From: Xenorhabdus koppenhoeferi
GTDB taxonomy: Bacteria > Pseudomonadota > Gammaproteobacteria > Enterobacterales > Enterobacteriaceae
Direction: 5' to 3'
DNA: 64,000 nucleotides
NCBI RefSeq assembly: GCF_900116635.1
Contig: NZ_FPBJ01000009.1
Span: 1 to 64,000, forward strand
Below, one piece after another: positions 8,959-59,323 of this stretch (the first letter of the stretch is position 1; every line of letters begins with the position of its first letter). The position numbers and the translations under genes were made by a program. The notes beneath the pieces were generated by a model. The model did no database searches and was not told where the DNA came from. It saw only the letters and a list, made by a program, of their open reading frames with translations.

Positions 8959-10506
8959 GTGGCGGTTTATCCTCTTAATACAGAACCAAAAGGGGCGGAA
9001 TATCTCAAAGCCGCATTGAGTGCACCCGTTTATGATGTTGCTCAAGTTACCCCGTTGCAGGAAATGAAAAAAATCTCGGCCCGTTTAGATAATACAATTT
9101 TAGTTAAACGGGAAGACCGTCAGGTAGTGCACAGTTTCAAATTGCGTGGTGCATACGCAATGATTGTGGGTTTGACGGAAACTCAAAAATCCAAAGGTGT
9201 CATTACCGCTTCTGCCGGCAATCATGCGCAAGGTGTTGCGTTATCAGCCAGTAAGGTTGGTATGAAAGCCATCATCGTAATGCCAATAGCTACAGCGGAT
9301 ATTAAAGTCGATGCCGTGCGTAGCTTTGGCGGAGAAGTGTTGTTACACGGTGCGAATTTTGATGAAGCGAAAGCGAAAGCAATCGAGATGGCAAAAGAGC
9401 ACGGTTACACTTTTGTACCCCCTTTTGATCATCCTGCCGTGATTGCGGGTCAGGCAACATTGGCGATGGAATTATTACAGCAGGATGTCCACCTTGATCG
9501 CATTTTTGTGCCGGTGGGTGGTGGTGGATTAATTGCGGGTGTCGCTGTTCTCATCAAACAACTTGTACCAGAAATGAAGGTCATCGGTGTGGAAGCCGAG
9601 GATTCTGCCTGTTTGAAAGCAGCATTGGAAGCGGGGCATCCAGTTGATTTACCTAGAGTTGGGCTATTTGCGGAGGGCGTGGCAGTTAAACGCATTGGCG
9701 ACGAAACATTCCGTTTATGCCAGCAATATGTTGATGATGTTATTACGGTGGATAGTGATGCGATTTGTGCTGCCATGAAAGATATCTTTGAAGATGTCAG
9801 AGCGATTGCGGAACCTTCGGGTGCATTGGCATTGGCGGGCCTGAAAAAATATGTCCAACAACATCAGATTCAGGGAGAAAGACTGGCACATATTCTTTCT
9901 GGCGCTAATGTGAATTTTCATGGCTTGCGTTATATTTCTGAACGCAGTGAACTGGGAGAACAGCGCGAAGCCTTACTGGCAGTCACTATTCCTGAACAAA
10001 AGGGCAGTTTCCTGCATTTCTGCCAGATATTGGGTCCTCGTGTTGTGACCGAATTCAGTTATCGCTATTCGGATGTCACTGACCTGAACAAGGCCTGTAT
10101 TTTTGTGGGTATCCGATTGAGTCGCGGGAATGCTGAGCGTTGTGAAATCATTGAGGTATTAAAAGTATCGGGATATCAGGTGGCTGATTTTACCGATGAT
10201 GAAATGGCGAAATTGCATGTCCGTTACATGATAGGCGGCAGGCCAGCAAAGCCATTGCAGGAGCGGTTGTTTAGTTTTGCCTTTCCTGAATCTCCGGGGG
10301 CTTTATTGAAATTTTTACAGACGCTAGGCACACATTGGAATATCACTTTATTTCATTATCGTAGTCACGGCACAGATTATGGTCGTGTATTAGCAGCTTT
10401 TGAGCTTTCAGAGCCGGAAATATGTTTTGATCGTCATTTGGACATGCTGGGCTATGAATATCATGATGAAACTCATAACTCTTCGTTTAAATTATTTTTG
10501 ACTTAA
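8959..10506 (+). CDS. ilvA: Biosynthetic threonine ammonia-lyase
   Basis: IlvA deaminates threonine to 2-ketobutyrate, the committed and isoleucine-inhibited step of isoleucine synthesis. The 515-aa protein has PLP Lys61 in VHSFKLRGAY, the cofactor phosphate loop VGGGGL, and two C-terminal ACT-like regulatory domains from about residue 335. The start is probably GTG at 8959, with GGGGA at 8947-8951 (7-nt spacing). A TTG at 8953 overlapping the ilvD stop is the alternative and would add two residues. Very tight spacing to ilvD suggests coupled translation. The regulatory half is complete, so feedback inhibition should be retained. Confidence 0.95.
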   Translation: MAVYPLNTEPKGAEYLKAALSAPVYDVAQVTPLQEMKKISARLDNTILVKREDRQVVHSFKLRGAYAMIVGLTETQKSKGVITASAGNHAQGVALSASKVGMKAIIVMPIATADIKVDAVRSFGGEVLLHGANFDEAKAKAIEMAKEHGYTFVPPFDHPAVIAGQATLAMELLQQDVHLDRIFVPVGGGGLIAGVAVLIKQLVPEMKVIGVEAEDSACLKAALEAGHPVDLPRVGLFAEGVAVKRIGDETFRLCQQYVDDVITVDSDAICAAMKDIFEDVRAIAEPSGALALAGLKKYVQQHQIQGERLAHILSGANVNFHGLRYISERSELGEQREALLAVTIPEQKGSFLHFCQILGPRVVTEFSYRYSDVTDLNKACIFVGIRLSRGNAERCEIIEVLKVSGYQVADFTDDEMAKLHVRYMIGGRPAKPLQERLFSFAFPESPGALLKFLQTLGTHWNITLFHYRSHGTDYGRVLAAFELSEPEICFDRHLDMLGYEYHDETHNSSFKLFLT

Positions 10507-10516
10507 GCCACCAATC

Positions 10517-10551
10517 GCAAAATAGCTCTTTTGATACGAGGGCTATTTTGC
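10517..10551. terminator. Terminator-like inverted repeat after ilvA
   Basis: GCAAAATAGC (10517-10526) and GCTATTTTGC (10542-10551) form a perfect 10-bp stem 10 nt after the ilvA stop. There is no separate T run, but Ts occur inside the arm. It lies between the convergent ends of ilvA and ilvY, so it may work in both directions. Confidence 0.6.
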
Positions 10552-10716
10552 CCGATTATTGCGTCGTCAGTATTATTTAACCAACGATTTAGCACCAGAA
10601 TATCTGGAGAGGTGTTTGATAGTAAACAGTGGACGAAATAATCTGCCATCAAACGGGTTGTTTCTGATTCGAGGTAAGTAATATCAGATGAAACACTCAA
10701 TTTACAGTTTCTGAAG

Positions 10717-11598
10717 CTATAACAGATCCCAAAATGCTTTAACCAACGGTTCATTCAAGCGCTTGCTTAGTGTACAAACTCCCAATTCAAATGGCTCAAC
10801 CAACGAAATATTTTCCAGTAATGAGACACGGTTACGTACAGGTTCAGGACTATTTTCGATAACAACTGCAGGGATCAGGGCAGTCCCACAGCCCAATGCC
10901 ACCATAGAAACAATCGCTTCATGGCCGGAAACTGTTGCGTAAATAACAGGATGCAGGATCTTATTCCGGCGAAACCAAAGTTCAATGCGCTTACGTGAAG
11001 GCCCATGTTCAGGCAGGATAAACGGAACAGTATTCCAGTCTGGCTGCTCTTGTATTGCAAGCGTTTTCACCGCACAAGGCAGAGAGGGGGTAATTAATAC
11101 TAATGGTATTTCACCTATTTTAGTAAAGCTGACATTATCAGGCAGTTTTTCTGGCTTTCCTGCAATGCCTAAATCGGCGGCATCAGATTGGATCCTATCA
11201 ACGGCATCTGCGGCATCTCCCGTTGTCAGTTTAATTTCCACCAAGGGATGCTCTGCCCTGAATTTATCCAACACTTGCGGAAGATGGCTATACGCAGCAG
11301 TCACCGAACAGAACAGACGTAATTCTCCCGTCAGTGATGGGCTTTGATGATTTAATGAGTTCTGTAGCTGCTTATATTGCAGGAGCGTTTGTTGGGCAAA
11401 TTGTTTGAGCTGCTCACCGGCAATAGTGAGTTTGACTGTTCGGTTATCTCGTAGAAAGAGCGGATGCCCCAATAATTCCTCAAGGCGCTGTATTTGGCGT
11501 GAAAGCGTGGATGGGCTGACATGCATGGCCTTGGCAGTTTGCCCAAAATGACAACTTTCCGCAAGGTGTAAAAATAGTTTTAACTCACGTAGATCCAT
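10717..11598 (-). CDS. ilvY: LysR-family activator of ilvC
   Basis: IlvY is the LysR-type activator of ilvC. In E. coli it responds to the IlvC substrates acetolactate and acetohydroxybutyrate and represses its own gene. The protein is 293 aa (E. coli about 297), with an N-terminal helix-turn-helix (about 14-40, HFGQTAKAMHVSPSTLSRQ) and a periplasmic-binding-protein-like effector domain. It is transcribed away from ilvC, the standard LysR arrangement, with a candidate operator in the shared region. About 210 bp lie between its stop and the ilvA terminator region without a supportable gene. Confidence 0.95.
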   Translation of the reverse strand: MDLRELKLFLHLAESCHFGQTAKAMHVSPSTLSRQIQRLEELLGHPLFLRDNRTVKLTIAGEQLKQFAQQTLLQYKQLQNSLNHQSPSLTGELRLFCSVTAAYSHLPQVLDKFRAEHPLVEIKLTTGDAADAVDRIQSDAADLGIAGKPEKLPDNVSFTKIGEIPLVLITPSLPCAVKTLAIQEQPDWNTVPFILPEHGPSRKRIELWFRRNKILHPVIYATVSGHEAIVSMVALGCGTALIPAVVIENSPEPVRNRVSLLENISLVEPFELGVCTLSKRLNEPLVKAFWDLL

Positions 11599-14848: not shown

Positions 14849-16879
14849 ATGCAATTAAATCCAAGCCAACAACAAGCGGTTGAATTTGTAACGGGGCCTT
14901 GTCTGGTTCTGGCTGGGGCAGGTTCTGGCAAGACCCGGGTGATTACTAATAAAATTGCCCATTTAATCCGCAATTGCGGTTATTTGCCTCGCTATATTGC
15001 AGCGGTCACCTTTACCAATAAGGCGGCCCGCGAGATGAAAGAGCGTGTATCGCAAACCTTAGGGCGCAAGGAAACGCGAGGGTTGATGATCTCAACTTTC
15101 CACACCTTGGGCTTGGAGATCATCAAGCGTGAATATAAAGCTCTGGGTATGAAGAGCAATTTTTCGTTGTTTGATGATCACGATCAGATGGTTTTACTGA
15201 AAGATCTCACGGCAGATCTGTTGGAAGAAGATAAGGATTTATTGCAAAAGCTTATTTCCAGTATTTGTAACTGGAAGAATGAATTAATTCCACCAGAGCA
15301 GGTGATCAGGAGGGTTCGTACGGCGCAGGAGCACCAATTTGCAGAGTGTTACCGTCGTTATGATTTACATCTGAACAGCTGTAACGTTCTTGATTTTGAT
15401 GATCTGATTACCAAACCTACTCTGTTGTTAATGCGTGATGAAGAAGTCAGGGAGCGCTGGCAGAATAAAATTCGTTATCTGCTGGTGGATGAGTATCAGG
15501 ATACGAATACCAGCCAATACCAATTGGTGAAATTGCTGGTGGGCAATCGTGCTCGTTTTACCGTGGTCGGCGATGATGATCAGTCCATATATTCATGGCG
15601 TGGTGCCCGTCCACAAAATTTGATCCTGCTGAAAGAAGACTTCCCGCAGTTGAATGTGATCAAACTGGAACAGAATTACCGTTCATCAGGACGAATATTG
15701 AAGTCAGCTAATATTCTGATAGCCAACAACCCCCATGTATTTGAGAAAAAACTCTTTTCAGAATTGGGCTATGGTGATCCCCTCCGAGTGATTGAAGCCA
15801 ACAATGAAGATCATGAAGCTGAGCGGGTAGTGGGAGAACTGATCGCCCATCACTTTATCAATAAAACAGAATATAAAGATTACGCCATTCTTTATCGTGG
15901 TAATCATCAGTCCCGTATCTTCGAAAAAATGTTGATGCAAAACCGGATCCCTTACCGCATTTCGGGAGGGACATCGTTTTTTTCTCGGCCTGAGATCAAG
16001 GACTTACTCTCGTATCTGCGTGTTTTGATTAATCCAGAGGATGACAGCGCGTTTTTGCGTATCGTCAATACACCACGGCGAGAAATCGGGGCGGTGACAA
16101 TCCAGAAGTTAGGTGAGTGGGCGAATCAACGTAACAAGAGTTTATATCAAGCCAGTTTTGATTTTGGACTGGAGCAGTATCTGACAGGACGTGGTTTGGC
16201 TGCATTGCAGCGTTTTACTCACTGGATGGATGAAATATCCAAACAGACGGAGTGTGAACCGTTATTGGCTGTAAGGGACTTACTGCGTGGTATGGATTAC
16301 GAAAGCTGGCTATATGAAACTTCCCCCAGCCCGAAAGCGGCTGAAATGAGAATGAAAAATGTCAATCAGCTTTTCACTTGGATGAGCGAAATGCTTGAGG
16401 GAAATGACTTGAATGAATCAATGAGCCTTTCTCAGGTAGTGGCGCGCTTTACTCTGCGGGATATGCTGGAGCGTGGGGAAGAAGACGAAGAGCTGGATCA
16501 GGTTCAGCTGATGACGTTGCATGCTTCCAAAGGGCTGGAATTCCCTTACGTTTTTCTGGTTGGCATTGAAGAGGGGTTGTTACCACATCAGAGCAGTATT
16601 GATGAAGATAACATTGAGGAAGAGCGCCGTTTGGCTTATGTCGGCATTACCCGTGCGCAGAGAGAACTATTTTTTACTCTGAGCAAAGAGCGTCGTCAGT
16701 ATGGTGAATTGATCCGCCCTGAGCCAAGCCGATTCTTGCTTGAGCTACCACAAGATGATCTGGATTGGCCACAAAGTAAACGCGTGGTTAGTGCGGAAGA
16801 GCGAATGAAACAGGGGCAGTCGCGTCTTGCAGATATTAAATCACGTTTAGGGCTTGGTCAGAAAAACGTAGGTAAGTAA
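14849..16879 (+). CDS. rep: ATP-dependent DNA helicase Rep
   Basis: Rep is an SF1A 3'-5' helicase that works with the replicative helicase DnaB to clear protein blocks from forks and helps restart replication. At 676 aa it is close to the E. coli protein (673 aa). Walker A AGAGSGKT covers residues 22-29, followed by [10 protein letters not shown], the Walker [27 protein letters not shown] and the C-terminal motifs [11 protein letters not shown] and VGITRA. The C-terminal tail, which contacts DnaB in E. coli, is present. I saw no clear ribosome-binding site before the ATG. Another UvrD/Rep-type helicase gene, uvrD, lies at 48948. Confidence 0.97.
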
Positions 16880-16889
16880 GTACCTGTCC

Positions 16890-16932
16890 CTTTAGTTATT
16901 CTGTATTCTTAATGAATACAGAATAACTAAAG
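16890..16932. terminator. Long perfect hairpin between rep and gppA remnant
   Basis: Two 19-nt arms, 16890-16908 and 16914-16932, are perfectly complementary around a TTAAT loop. The hairpin starts with CTTTAGTTATTCTG and ends with CAGAATAACTAAAG. Placed between convergent genes, it is a likely bidirectional terminator, and the T/A-rich arm ends act as the U tract on either strand. Confidence 0.8.
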
Positions 16933-16939
16933 TAAAAGC

Positions 16940-17215
16940 TTAATCTAAACAGGGATTATTTTGTTCTTCAAGGAACAAAGACCACTGAACATAACCCTGC
17001 CATTTTATTTCTTGCTGTAATGCTTCTGCCCTGAGAGGATGCTGCATCTGTGCCTGCTCAGTATCCAATTGAGAACGTTGTTGAATATTGTGCAAGGTTC
17101 TTGCACGAATATCTTGTCCAATCGGTAAAAATCCGGATACTTCACGGACAACCAGCATATGGAAACTGTTTGAGCCTAAATCGATAGCAGCATAGAGCGA
17201 AGAAAAACCCAGCAT
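16940..17215 (-). pseudogene. gppA: gppA remnant with two in-frame deletions
   Basis: GppA normally hydrolyses pppGpp to ppGpp and has about 494 residues. Here an open frame of 91 codons joins three separate pieces of it: the N-terminus [19 protein letters not shown] with REV, then a middle piece [14 protein letters not shown]...TEQAQ resembling about residues 305-328 of the E. coli protein, then the C-terminal end HPL...KWQGYVQW. About 80% of the protein is missing, including almost all of the ASKHA-fold catalytic domain and the HD-like domain, yet the frame is kept across both junctions. It sits 45 nt after rhlB, the normal place for gppA. Catalysis is not expected. The start at 17215 matches the E. 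coli N-terminus. Confidence 0.85.
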
Positions 17216-17260
17216 AGTATTTATTCCGACATACATGTGTTATTTCAGCGCCGTATTGTA

Positions 17261-18544
17261 TTAACTCGGACGTTGACGGTTGCGTGTTGGATTTCCACGG
17301 CGCGGCATATTAGAGCGGCGTGGGTGTCCCCCTGAGCGTGCGCGATTACGGCGCTTAGGAACTGGCAGATCTTGTAATAACGCATCACTATTATATTTGC
17401 TGACCGGGATTTGGTGCTGGATATACTCTTCAATGGCCGGCAAGTTCAATACATACTCTTCACATGCCAGGCTGATAGAATGCCCACTTTCTCCGGCGCG
17501 CCCTGTCCGGCCAATACGGTGAACATAATCTTCACAGTCATCCGGCAGATCATAGTTAAATACATGTGTCACCGACGGAATATGCAGTCCACGGGCGGCA
17601 ACGTCGGTAGCCACCAAAATATCCAGATTACCCAGACTGAATTCCTCAAGAATACGCAGGCGCTTTTTCTGGGCGACATCACCTGTCAGAAGACCGACAC
17701 GATGACCATCAGCAGCCAGATGGGCCCAAATATCTTCACAGCGGTGTTTGGTATTGGCAAAAATAATGCAGCGATCAGGCCACTCTTCTTCCAGCAACGT
17801 CTGTAACAGACGCATTTTTTCTTCATTGGAAGGGTAAAATAGCTCTTCCTGAATGCGGTGCCCTGTTTTTTGCAGGGGTTCTACTTCCACATATTCAGGA
17901 TTATTCATCTGTTCAAATGCCAATTCACGCACCCGATAAGATAGTGTTGCAGAAAAGAGCAGATTCATTCTTTCCGTAGCTGCCGGAATGCGGCGGAACA
18001 GCCAGCGAATATCTTTGATAAAACCCAAATCGTACATGCGATCTGCTTCATCGAGCACGATGACTTGAATCGCACTAAGATGGATATGACCTTGTTTTGT
18101 ATAATCGATCAAACGACCTGTTGTGCCAATGACGATATCAACGCCAGATTCCAGCACCTTAAGCTGTTTATCATAGCCGTCGCCGCCGTAGGCAAGACCC
18201 ATTTTTAATCCAGTAACTTCCGACAATTCTTCTGCGTCAGAGTATATCTGGACAGCTAATTCGCGGGTAGGTGCCATAATCAGCGCTCTTGGCTGATTGA
18301 TTTTACGTTCTTTCCCCACAGGATGAGTCAATAAGTAATGAAAAGTAGACGCTAAAAATGCCAGCGTCTTGCCTGTTCCGGTTTGTGCTTGTCCCGCAAC
18401 ATCTCGGCCTTCGACAGTAAAAGGCAATGTTAGCGCCTGTATTGGCGTGCAGTTGGAAAACCCTTTTTTATCAAGAGCTCCCAAGACCTTGGGGTGCAAT
18501 GCGAAGTCGGAAAACTTCTTTTCTGTCAAATGTGTTTTGCTCAT
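17261..18544 (-). CDS. rhlB: ATP-dependent RNA helicase RhlB
   Basis: RhlB is the DEAD-box helicase of the RNA degradosome; it binds RNase E and unwinds structured RNA for PNPase. The 427-aa protein contains the Q motif (near 29-37), Walker A AQTGTGKT (53-60), PTRELA, the DEAD box at 165-168 in [11 protein letters not shown], and [10 protein letters not shown]. The C-terminal tail from about residue 393 is rich in Arg and Gly, as expected for an RNA-binding extension. It is divergent from trxA and upstream of the gppA remnant, the arrangement of E. coli rhlB-gppA. Confidence 0.96.
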
Positions 18545-18664
18545 AGTGTGGTAAGAATATCAGTTAACTATTGCTTTAAGAAAGTGTATCCGCTGAAATA
18601 AAGACACCCTAGTGTTGGTTAAGGTACACTGACACTGTAAAAGATTTTACTTTTGGAGCAAAAA

Positions 18665-19021
18665 ATGAATGAAAAAATTGTGAACGATGAAGTTGTGAAT
18701 GCAGGTATCGTTCATTTGGCTGACAGTGATTTCAACGAAGATAAACTGAATGTAAAAGGTCCTGTCCTCGTTGAATTTTGGGCTGAATGGTGTGGCCCTT
18801 GTAAAATGATTGCTCCTATTTTGGATGAAATCTCTTCAGATTTTGCTGGTAAACTGAAAGTTGCTAAGCTGAATGTCGATGATCACACTGAAACAGCACC
18901 AAAATTCGGTATTCGCGGTATCCCAACAATGATTCTGTTTAAAGATGGTGAGAAGGTTGCGGTAAAAGTGGGCGCACTGTCAAAAACTCAACTGAAAGCG
19001 TTTTTGGAACCACACCTTTAA
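18665..19021 (+). CDS. trxA: Thioredoxin 1 with extended N-terminus
   Basis: Thioredoxin is the general cytoplasmic disulfide reductase, recycled by TrxB. The active site WCGPC places the redox cysteines at 43 and 46. The cis-proline loop GIRGIPT and the buried Asp region are conserved. The protein is 118 aa, about nine residues longer than E. coli TrxA (109), because of an N-terminal stretch [14 protein letters not shown] before the first strand. ATG at 18665 is preceded by GGAG at 18655-18658, and no later start fits the ribosome site. It is divergent from rhlB and precedes rho, as in E. coli. Confidence 0.95.
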
Positions 19022-19810
19022 TTTAGAGTCAGGTCACAGTAATTACGGGCGTTTAGCATATAGGATGATTTATCTTATTGACCGCTAGACGTCTGCTACG
19101 AAGCATGGTAAGTTAGCGATTACATGCTCGTATAAAACATTTCATGAGTGAATTTTTTATTTGATATAAAGGTTTATTGGTGTAAAGAGTTGACATTATG
19201 CATGTTGCATACTAAAAAACCTGTAGTATCTGATAAATCTGTTATTTCTGGATCACCTGAAGTATCTGATAGCATATCGCATTTGGTAAATTCGCTGAGT
19301 CTATATACAGGATATTTAGTATATGGCTTAGTTCGCTGATAGCGTTCTGATACTGAACATCTCTAAGCAGGATGTTTTTGTAGTTATAATTTTTATATAC
19401 CCAATGGATTTCAAGATGCAGCGCGACGGCAAGGGAATGAATCCCCAAGAGCATAGCTAACTATGTAACTGGGGTGAGTGAGCGCAGCCAACAAAGCTGC
19501 AACTTGAAAGACGACGGGTATAGTTATAAACAGTGCTCATACCAAGATAATGCTTATGCTGAGATAGTTTTTATTTGAAATAGTTCTTATTATTGAAACT
19601 AACCACGTTTCGTTATTATCTCAGTCGTGTTTTGACAGTTTGTCAGTCTTATTTTGCAATCAATCTGAGTACTTCAAGTTACTGCCTTGTAATATAAATA
19701 TGTTAGAAGGTTTTATTCGTTTCTGGTACAAATAAACAGGCACCGATAACGTTGCCATACCATTCACGTTCAGAGTTCGAGATATACCCCGAGTTAAAGA
19801 ACCCACCATT
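19022..19810 (+). other. Long trxA-rho intergenic region
   Basis: This 789-bp interval is unusually long for trxA-rho. It contains an imperfect hairpin (TACGAAGCATG at 19097-19107 with CATGCTCGTA at 19123-19132) that may end trxA, an ERIC-type element (19396-19522), and the rho leader. A small open frame at 19148-19339 shows no resemblance to the E. coli rhoL peptide and is not called as a gene. TTGACA at 19632-19637 is a possible -35 for rho, without a convincing -10. Confidence 0.55.
19396..19522. repeat. ERIC-type intergenic repeat, copy 1
   Basis: A 127-bp imperfect palindrome with inverted ends TATACCC/GGGTATA. Internal hallmarks are GGATTTCAAG, the palindrome ATAGCTAACTATGTAACT, GGGGTGAGTGAGCGCAGCCA and CAACTTGAAAGACGACGGG. 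These are the conserved blocks of enterobacterial repetitive intergenic consensus elements common in Xenorhabdus, Photorhabdus and Yersinia. It lies between trxA and rho. Confidence 0.88.
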
Positions 19811-21070
19811 ATGAATCTTACCGAATTAAAGAATACGCCAGTATCTGAGTTGATTACTCTTGGCGAAAATATGGGGCTGGAAAATCTGGCTCGTATGCGT
19901 AAGCAAGACATCATTTTCTCTATTCTCAAACAACACGCAAAAAGTGGAGAGGATATTTTCGGAGATGGTGTGCTGGAGATATTACAGGATGGATTTGGTT
20001 TCCTCCGCTCCGCAGACAGTTCTTACCTTGCAGGTCCCGATGATATTTACGTTTCTCCTAGTCAAATCCGCCGTTTCAACCTCCGTACCGGTGATACCAT
20101 TTCAGGGAAAATCCGCCCACCAAAAGAAGGTGAACGCTATTTTGCCCTGCTGAAAGTTAATGAAGTTAACTTTGACAAACCTGAAAATGCCCGCAATAAA
20201 ATCCTGTTTGAAAACCTGACTCCGCTTCATGCCAATAACCGTCTGCGCATGGAACGTGGTAATGGTTCTACTGAGGATTTGACCGCTCGTGTGTTGGACT
20301 TGGCTGCTCCGATTGGTCGCGGTCAACGTGGTTTGATCGTTGCTCCACCAAAAGCGGGTAAAACCATGCTGCTGCAAAATATTGCAGCTAACATTGCTCA
20401 TAACTACCCAGACTGTGTTCTGATGGTACTGCTGATTGATGAGCGTCCAGAAGAAGTGACCGAAATGCAGCGTCTGGTAAAAGGCGAAGTCATTGCTTCA
20501 ACTTTTGATGAACCAGCTTCTCGTCACGTTCAAGTGGCTGAAATGGTGATCGAAAAAGCAAAACGTCTGGTTGAGCATAAAAAAGATGTCATTATCCTGC
20601 TGGATTCCATTACCCGTCTGGCTCGTGCATATAACACCGTCGTTCCTGCATCCGGTAAGGTATTGACTGGTGGTGTGGATGCGAATGCCCTGCATCGTCC
20701 AAAACGTTTCTTTGGTGCTGCACGTAATGTTGAAGAAGGTGGTAGCCTGACCATCATCGCCACTGCGCTGGTTGATACTGGTTCCAAAATGGATGAAGTT
20801 ATTTACGAAGAATTTAAAGGTACAGGTAACATGGAATTACACCTGTCCCGTAAAATCGCTGAAAAACGTGTTTTCCCTGCTATTGATTATAATCGTTCTG
20901 GAACACGTAAAGAAGAGCTGCTCACTGTACAGGATGAGCTACAGAAAATGTGGATCCTACGTAAAATTATTCACCCAATGGGTGAAATCGATGCGATGGA
21001 ATTCCTTATTAACAAACTGGCTATGACAAAAACAAACGAAGAATTCTTCGACTTTATGAAACGTTCATAG
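19811..21070 (+). CDS. rho: Transcription termination factor Rho
   Basis: Rho is the hexameric RNA-dependent ATPase and translocase that releases RNA polymerase at factor-dependent terminators. The 419-aa length equals E. coli Rho and the protein is almost identical to it. It has the N-terminal helical and cold-shock-like RNA-binding domain (1-130, with DGFGFLRS), Walker A APPKAGKT (about 178-185), Walker B VIILLDS, the Q loop and the R-loop region ending [16 protein letters not shown]. In E. coli rho is autoregulated through its leader; the long upstream region here would allow that, but no specific element can be named. Confidence 0.98.
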
Positions 21071-52183: not shown

Positions 52184-52311
52184 TATACACAATGGATTTC
52201 AAGTTGCATCGCCGACGGCAAGAGGGCAAATCCCCGGGAGTATAGATAGCTATGTGACCGGGGTGAGCGAGCGCAGTCAACAAAGAGGCAGTTTGAAAGA
52301 CGAAGTGTATA
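52184..52311. repeat. ERIC-type intergenic repeat, copy 2
   Basis: A 128-bp element with inverted ends TATACAC/GTGTATA and the ERIC blocks GGATTTCAAGTTGCATCGC, ATAGATAGCTATGTGACC, GGGGTGAGCGAGCGCAGTCA and GTTTGAAAGACGAAG. It fills the corA-rarD space, where E. coli has yigF and yigG. Confidence 0.88.
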
Positions 52312-58144: not shown

Positions 58145-58233
58145 TGTTGATAAATTGAATTTATCCAATAAATTTCAGCATCAGTGAGAACACAACGCAA
58201 TAGCTTGAAAAATTAAGGCAATAATCGTTTGAG

Positions 58234-58262
58234 AACAGTATCCGACAGGATGCGGTTTCTTT
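58234..58262 (+). terminator. yigL terminator
   Basis: AACAGTATCC (58234-58243) pairs with GGATGCGGTT (58248-58257) around GACA, with one mismatch and one wobble, followed by TCTTTTA. It closes the pldB-yigL unit. Confidence 0.65.
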
Positions 58263-58406
58263 TATTTGTGACACTAACGGCAACAGACATCAACTTTGAC
58301 CATACTTCACGCTTAAGAAGCCGGAAGCATATCATAGCAACTAACTATTTAATACATGACCGAATTTAGAGCTAGTCTGCAAAAATAACAGAATAAAACA
58401 TCAGTA

Positions 58407-58427
58407 AAGGGCTTCATCAAAGCCCTT
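58407..58427 (-). terminator. Terminator of the DUF1460 lipoprotein gene
   Basis: AAGGGCT (58407-58413) and AGCCCTT (58421-58427) form a perfect 7-bp stem directly beyond the stop codon of the minus-strand gene at 58434. The T tail on the minus strand is short. Confidence 0.6.
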
Positions 58428-58433
58428 ATTTAG

Positions 58434-59234
58434 CTATTTCGTTGCGCGTAAAACAATAACGCCTGGTTTAGAACTCATATATTCAATAAAAGGTGTATCT
58501 ACAACTTTGTTATTTTTAGACAAAGATGAAGCATTACGATACAAAACTTGATTATCTTTTTTAATAACAATACCCGTATGAGAAACATCTAATCCATTTA
58601 TTGGAGAATAAACACCTGCAAGATCTCCATCTTGCATATTATCAAGAACCTTTTGGTTTATTGCTTCCCCCGGAATATAGGTTACCATACGAGGAGTGAC
58701 CCCTAATCCTTTGATATATTCACTACCATCTGATTTTTGATTTAACATTTTTTCTACTGTAATAGCATCAGGACTGAGCGTTGACGTAACATCAATTGCA
58801 TTTCGCGGGGATACCGCATACCAATCCGTGAAAAAATGTTTTCGCTTATAATAGCTGACATCCGAATTCTTATAGCGCGTATTGACCAATGAATTAAGAA
58901 AAGAGGTTTCATTTTCTGATTTTGTCAGAGCGACGACATAATCAAGATATGTGAAACAATCAACGGCATCGAAATTAACAACGAGTGTTTCTTGCTGGTC
59001 AGGACTTCCTATTAACGTATTAGCAAGATAGGGAGTCCCTAAAAATGAAGCTGATACACGATCAACCAATTCACCTTGAGTAAGATTTTTATTCGGTTTT
59101 ATTTCACTATCAATAATATTATTGATTTTTTCTTTGGCATTATCACTTATCATTATGGGATAGCCTGGCTGATCATTTGAAGCACAAGAAATTAAAGAAA
59201 ATGCAAGCAGAACCAGTAGAGGTGATTTCATCAT
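58434..59234 (-). CDS. DUF1460-family lipoprotein, probable cell-wall amidase
   Basis: A lipoprotein precursor of 266 aa with a hydrophobic signal and lipobox LISC (lipidated Cys17), followed by a DUF1460 domain. Proteins of this family have an NlpC/P60-like papain fold and are thought to act as N-acetylmuramoyl-L-alanine amidases or similar peptidoglycan hydrolases. The probable catalytic cysteine is Cys93 in AVDCFTYLDYVVAL and the histidine His219 in VSHTGIV; FLGTPYLANTLIG is also typical. Its AT-rich codon use differs from its neighbours, and it stands alone on the minus strand at the boundary between two E. coli map segments. Activity and substrate are not known; it could modify the cell's own wall or that of competitors. 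Confidence 0.82.
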   Translation of the reverse strand: MMKSPLLVLLAFSLISCASNDQPGYPIMISDNAKEKINNIIDSEIKPNKNLTQGELVDRVSASFLGTPYLANTLIGSPDQQETLVVNFDAVDCFTYLDYVVALTKSENETSFLNSLVNTRYKNSDVSYYKRKHFFTDWYAVSPRNAIDVTSTLSPDAITVEKMLNQKSDGSEYIKGLGVTPRMVTYIPGEAINQKVLDNMQDGDLAGVYSPINGLDVSHTGIVIKKDNQVLYRNASSLSKNNKVVDTPFIEYMSSKPGVIVLRATK

Positions 59235-59323
59235 CTATTACCTAAAGTTGTTATTAACAACTTCATTAATATTGTAAATTATTTCAAATAGCAACTAAAA
59301 TGTCATCAACATCTAGCGTCATT

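Follow-up and report, generated by a model that had tools for sequence, protein, structure and literature searches.

The window, a 64,000-nucleotide stretch of one Xenorhabdus koppenhoeferi contig, carries on its minus strand, between rhlB and rep, a short open frame at 17236..16940 that reads toward lower coordinates. Counted from the upstream in-frame ATG at 17236, the frame has 98 codons, and counted from the ATG at 17215, which aligns with the gppA start of relatives, it has 91 codons. The features of the locus are collected in Table 1. The hairpin that follows the frame is probably a terminator in both directions; in the 150 bases that follow gppA in 29 relatives, perfect arms reach 4-11 bp at most.

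Table 1. Features of the gppA remnant and its surroundings, in window coordinates.
Feature	Position	Strand	Basis
gppA remnant, 91 codons and stop, from the original gppA start codon	16940..17215	-	alignment to relatives, NCBIfam NF008260
Piece 1, GppA residues 1-28, start and conserved [10 protein letters not shown] region	17133..17215	-	tblastn, alignment
Junction 1, three bases assignable to neither side; sister GppA residues 29-301 lost	17130..17132	-	alignment
Piece 2, GppA residues 302-328	17048..17129	-	tblastn, alignment
Junction 2, CAG common to both sides	17048..17050	-	alignment
Piece 3, GppA residues 469-503 and stop codon; preceding CAG assignable to either side	16940..17047	-	tblastn, alignment
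rhlB, intact by length and domains, directly upstream of remnant	17261..18544	-	length, Pfam
rep, intact by length and domains, convergent with remnant	14849..16879	+	length, Pfam
Hairpin, 19-bp perfect arms, 5-base loop, 3' of remnant between convergent gppA and rep	16890..16932	-	z -7.60

We placed the window genome in a rep plus rhlB tree together with 27 genomes with intact gppA (G019 and G007 were omitted because rep is missing or partial in the stretch taken). The closest relative among the genomes compared is G020, hereafter the sister, at 0.21 substitutions per site, and the window is nearly collinear with it. The sister is longer than the window by about 1.1 kb at 10501-10723 and by 4.3 kb at 58160-59318. 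A repeat of about 129 bp occurs at 19395-19522 and 52184-52311, and the sister has it too; it presumably resembles an ERIC element. As a separate observation, rep of the window genome has 11 residue changes at 474 otherwise invariant positions, compared with 1-6 in five genomes, so selection is possibly weaker in the window lineage.

An earlier note, made from the letters of the window and giving no strand, had read the frame as the GppA N-terminus, a middle piece and the C-terminal end fused together, and we found that all three pieces match GppA. The NCBIfam model for GppA (NF008260, PRK11031) gives three matched stretches within the 91 residues (E 1.1e-20, 74.2 bits); this score is below the curated whole-protein cut-off of 624, and the intact protein of the sister scores 883. 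With the GppA of the sister as query, tblastn recovers residues 1-32 (84% identity), 303-329 (81%) and 467-500 (94%), which follow one another along the contig as they do in the protein. Hence, the middle piece also matches GppA.

Column mapping on the 503-residue GppA of the sister shows that residues 29-301 and 329-468, i.e. 413/503 (82%), are missing, which agrees with the estimate of about 80% made beforehand. The normal length had been given as roughly 494 residues and needs correction, since intact GppA of the genus has 499-512 residues from its start codon (502 in 23/29 Xenorhabdus genomes). In the sister, Pfam places the Ppx-GppA phosphatase domain (PF02541) at residues 22-302 and domain III at 309-482; hence, the remnant retains almost nothing of the phosphatase domain and only a minor part of domain III. 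The 98-residue frame has no Pfam match at E up to 1 and thus no match to PF02541. Judged by its sequence, the remnant is no working member of the GppA family. In Vibrio cholerae, GppA residues 1-310 and 18-310 are functional and residues 1-308 fail (PMC7552824). By analogy with these fragments, pppGpp hydrolysis by the remnant is expected to be absent, and no activity is to be expected of a protein that lacks residues 29-301.

Comparison of the rhlB-gppA region across Xenorhabdus, which the earlier note had proposed, found a GppA frame that measures 504-519 codons from stop to stop in 29/29 other genomes compared and the remnant arrangement in only 1/30, the window genome, with one strain of the species covered. 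The orthologue lies in the same place: gppA and rhlB are together in the stretches of 29/29 relatives, and rep is present in 28/29 (one partial). The open literature searched yielded no report of gppA loss in Xenorhabdus.

In a wider sample of 149 genomes of the family that includes the window genome, 88 have, by our count, full-length GppA; with a threshold of E up to 1e-5, GppA finds no match in 50, and in the remaining 11, the window genome among them, the match is partial or Ppx-only. Of the 50 genomes without a match, all 20 that were listed are 2.4 Mb or smaller. Hence, small genomes of this sample commonly lack full-length gppA. Five further members of the family (G056, G079, G082, G135 and G175) have a visibly broken gppA, and its frame is broken too; three of these genomes are only 81-87% complete (G082, G135 and G079) and G056 is 49% complete, so some breaks may be draft errors.

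Two members of other genera of the family, G139 (L165:1866-2777) and G097 (L166:2407-3312), have clean GppA frames of 303 and 301 residues that adjoin rhlB and end after domain II. At E up to 0.001, neither genome yielded a C-terminal half of GppA. These short proteins may lack pppGpp activity, since by their own numbering they end near the V. cholerae limit (PMC7552824).

Relative to intact relatives, the first deletion is 816 bp net, with its junction between 17133 and 17129, and the second is 417 bp, or 420 bp relative to the sister, which has one extra codon. The two separate in-frame deletions proposed for this gene are supported, and their short junctions differ. Several relatives have GG on both sides of junction 1, which would correspond to 818 bp lost and two bases added, and the sister has other bases there. 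The three unassigned bases at this junction allow two alternatives, 819 bp lost and 3 added, or 818 bp lost and 2 added. On the two-base reading (two extra T), the frame would have been put back by a later change, the one point that would lean toward selection for the frame. Slippage, or illegitimate recombination, between very short stretches common to both sides probably produced each deletion.

Since the assembly is a draft of 91 contigs, gppA could be whole in the organism and the remnant an artefact. We consider this highly improbable, because the site is inside a 92-kb contig, and the 91 contigs hold no further gppA pieces at E up to 0.001. Moreover, two deletions with different short junctions and with flanks collinear with the sister would be, in our judgement, an unusual assembly error.

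The unbroken frame admits two accounts, chance and selection, both of which had been offered in the earlier note. We simulated 200,000 random deletion pairs in the sister gppA and found that both deletions are in frame in 11.1% (0.111) and that a frame open from start to stop results by any route in 13.7% (0.137); in 20,000 trials with breakpoints near the observed ones, the frame is open in 12.9%. Hence, retention of the frame after two deletions is not rare (about 1 in 9) and is no strong sign of selection; an open frame is about what chance would leave of a gene lost recently. In our judgement, an out-of-frame case would hardly have drawn notice.

The 91 codons might instead encode a new small protein under selection, such as a peptide ligand of Ppx, SpoT or RhlB. 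In keeping with this, the start codon, the sequence before it, the stop (by eye) and the hairpin are all kept, the frame is open through both junctions, and dN/dS to the sister is 0.153 (12 amino-acid and 17 silent changes on 89 alignable codons, a count too small to separate neutrality from constraint). On the same 89 codons, dN/dS between the window and L114, L116 and L117 is 0.136, 0.116 and 0.078, and five pairs of intact genes give 0.058-0.134. Against a peptide, such low pairwise values mostly date from the period before the loss, when gppA was still complete. The remnant changes 1/36 columns that are invariant in 27 intact proteins, compared with 0-3 of 35-38 in intact genomes. Hence, with so few changes in the remnant pieces, gppA was lost recently, and after a recent loss the frame should still be unbroken.

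Changes were also assigned to the branch leading to the window. With L114 as outgroup, the remnant has 5 amino-acid and 8 silent codon changes, and rep plus rhlB have 22 and 116 (5/13 versus 22/138, Fisher P 0.058); with L117, the remnant has 2 and 9, and rep plus rhlB have 17 and 132 (2/11 versus 17/149, Fisher P 0.62). With the other two outgroups, amino-acid to silent changes in the remnant are 4:7 and 2:6. On the sister branch, the same columns have 2 and 7 (L114), 2 and 4 (L117), 2 and 5 (L131) and 4 and 7 (L116). Hence, for two outgroups and 89 codons, the share of amino-acid changes in the remnant is not lower than that of rep plus rhlB on the same branch, which argues against a selected small protein.

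By hand arithmetic with L114, a neutral branch would give about 30 amino-acid changes per 8 silent ones, and 5 are seen; on that basis, about a tenth of the branch would be neutral, although counts so small allow for as much as about a third. With L117, 2 amino-acid changes are seen and about 34 expected, so that the estimated neutral share is nil. The branch counts fit a loss that is recent relative to the branch and are compatible with both neutral decay and constraint on a peptide.

Also against a selected small protein are the 11-14% chance of an open frame and the absence of the arrangement from the other 29 Xenorhabdus genomes, which leaves the frame unconserved across species. We regard a new small protein as very unlikely. 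A narrower form of the idea takes the 91-residue fusion, with translation beginning at the gppA start, to be a new regulatory peptide that was retained and is built from the ends of GppA, the frame at junction 1 having been restored by a second small change under selection; it earns barely any credence from us. Selection for a short peptide, as suggested in the earlier note, is thus not supported, given that chance keeps the frame about once in nine times and that the remnant occurs in 1/30 genomes.

Selection might also act on the message, if translation to the end of the remnant protects the rhlB mRNA or its terminator. In favour of this, a strong hairpin follows the remnant with no gene in between, and rhlB and gppA are cotranscribed in V. 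cholerae; yet the rhlB transcript is still detectable after removal of gppA from V. cholerae, and E. coli gppA is apparently its own transcription unit (PMC7552824). Moreover, positions 16000-20000 have no match to an RNA family at gathering score, a promoter scan gave 4 sites compared with 3.9 expected from shuffles, and complete loss of the remnant would probably protect equally well. Protection of rhlB is therefore a most improbable reason for the kept frame, and the proposal of the earlier note that undisturbed rhlB mRNA ends are under selection finds no support.

At E up to 0.001, a search of the 91 contigs with the GppA of the sister matched nothing but Ppx and the three pieces of the remnant; hence, no second gppA was found. 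A Pfam domain search gave, besides Ppx, one weak match below the cut-off (20 versus 27 bits, in a 363-codon frame). Ppx (510 aa), SpoT (704 aa, with HD domain) and RelA (745 aa) are full length and above their NCBIfam cut-offs, and ppk (polyphosphate kinase) lies in an open frame of 737 codons. The prediction that the GppA enzyme is lost is borne out to the extent that nearly all of its phosphatase domain is gone and no other gppA was found in the genome, and the paralogue Ppx, for which a search had been proposed, is present at full length.

Mutants of other bacteria indicate what such a loss may mean. In V. cholerae, deletion of gppA gives about tenfold more pppGpp under amino-acid starvation, the mutant grows normally in both media tested, and overexpressed ppx complements the deletion (PMC7552824). 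In E. coli, a gppA mutant had 3.8-fold more pppGpp than the wild type under isoleucine starvation, and gppA loss combined with the hydrolase-deficient spoT1 allele was lethal (PMC7593582). By analogy with these mutants, GppA loss should raise pppGpp under starvation (PMC7552824, PMC7593582), and intact SpoT should make the loss tolerable.

The window genome has 3,182,127 bases (3.18 Mb) in 91 contigs with a completeness of 100, and each of 28 other Xenorhabdus genomes that are at least 99% complete is larger (3.6-5.3 Mb). We compared about 192 kb with two stretches of the sister and found that, among 190 sister frames of at least 100 codons, 135 are present in full, 4 are partial (one merely because the stretch ends there) and 51 are absent, including edge frames beyond the compared stretch. 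The three other partial genes are gppA, a tryptophanase-family gene and speG (spermidine N1-acetyltransferase). The tryptophanase-family fragment, beyond the window at C38:77218-78114 (L155:13218-14114), is an open frame of codons 51-349 of 467, joined to other sequence at both ends; it scores above the cut-off of the tryptophanase subfamily model and below that of the tnaA equivalog model. For speG, the last 34/180 codons are left beside ppk, at C54:21322-21423 (L151:1322-1423). Hence, gene fragments are not special to gppA.

We are highly confident that the gppA remnant is a recent pseudogene in a lineage whose genome is small for the genus. An intact orthologue lies in the same place in 29/29 relatives and the catalytic domain is disrupted; counting against a pseudogene, the frame is kept through both junctions and has no internal stop, unlike the broken frames of the five other family members, and pairwise dN/dS is low. 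On this pseudogene reading, gppA would not have been needed enough to be kept in the window lineage, two deletions would have taken about 82% of it, and both would have kept the frame by chance. Any peptide made from the remnant would be inactive, and SpoT and Ppx would now handle pppGpp. Loss of GppA function is very likely, and a function of the 91-residue peptide is unlikely.

As a sequence feature, the remnant is an ordinary young pseudogene. It makes the window strain a natural gppA null in a genus where 29/29 other genomes compared have the gene, with relA, spoT and ppx kept. Such an insect-associated strain could reveal how a symbiont of nematodes deals with more pppGpp.

In host-associated bacteria whose genomes are small, some pseudogenes arise through deletions between very short repeats. 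The gppA remnant is like these deletion pseudogenes in the ends that are left, the short shared bases at a junction, the small genome and the presence of other fragments; it differs in that both deletions happen to be in frame, which keeps start and stop connected. The broken gppA of G056, G079 and G175 represents loss of the same gene in genomes that are small or low in completeness score; those copies have frameshifts or stops, whereas that of the window has two clean deletions. Within the genus, genome reduction in X. poinarii, which has a small genome, is ascribed to block excision and to small deletions that leave gene remnants, without pseudogene accumulation (PMC4079199); hence, genome shrinkage in Xenorhabdus need not leave pseudogenes. 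Gene remnants left by small deletions are a feature shared with X. poinarii, which differs in its reported lack of pseudogene accumulation (PMC4079199). Compared with GppA itself (NF008260), the remnant is alike in the sequence of its three pieces and in its position after rhlB and before rep, and differs by the 413/503 residues that were lost.
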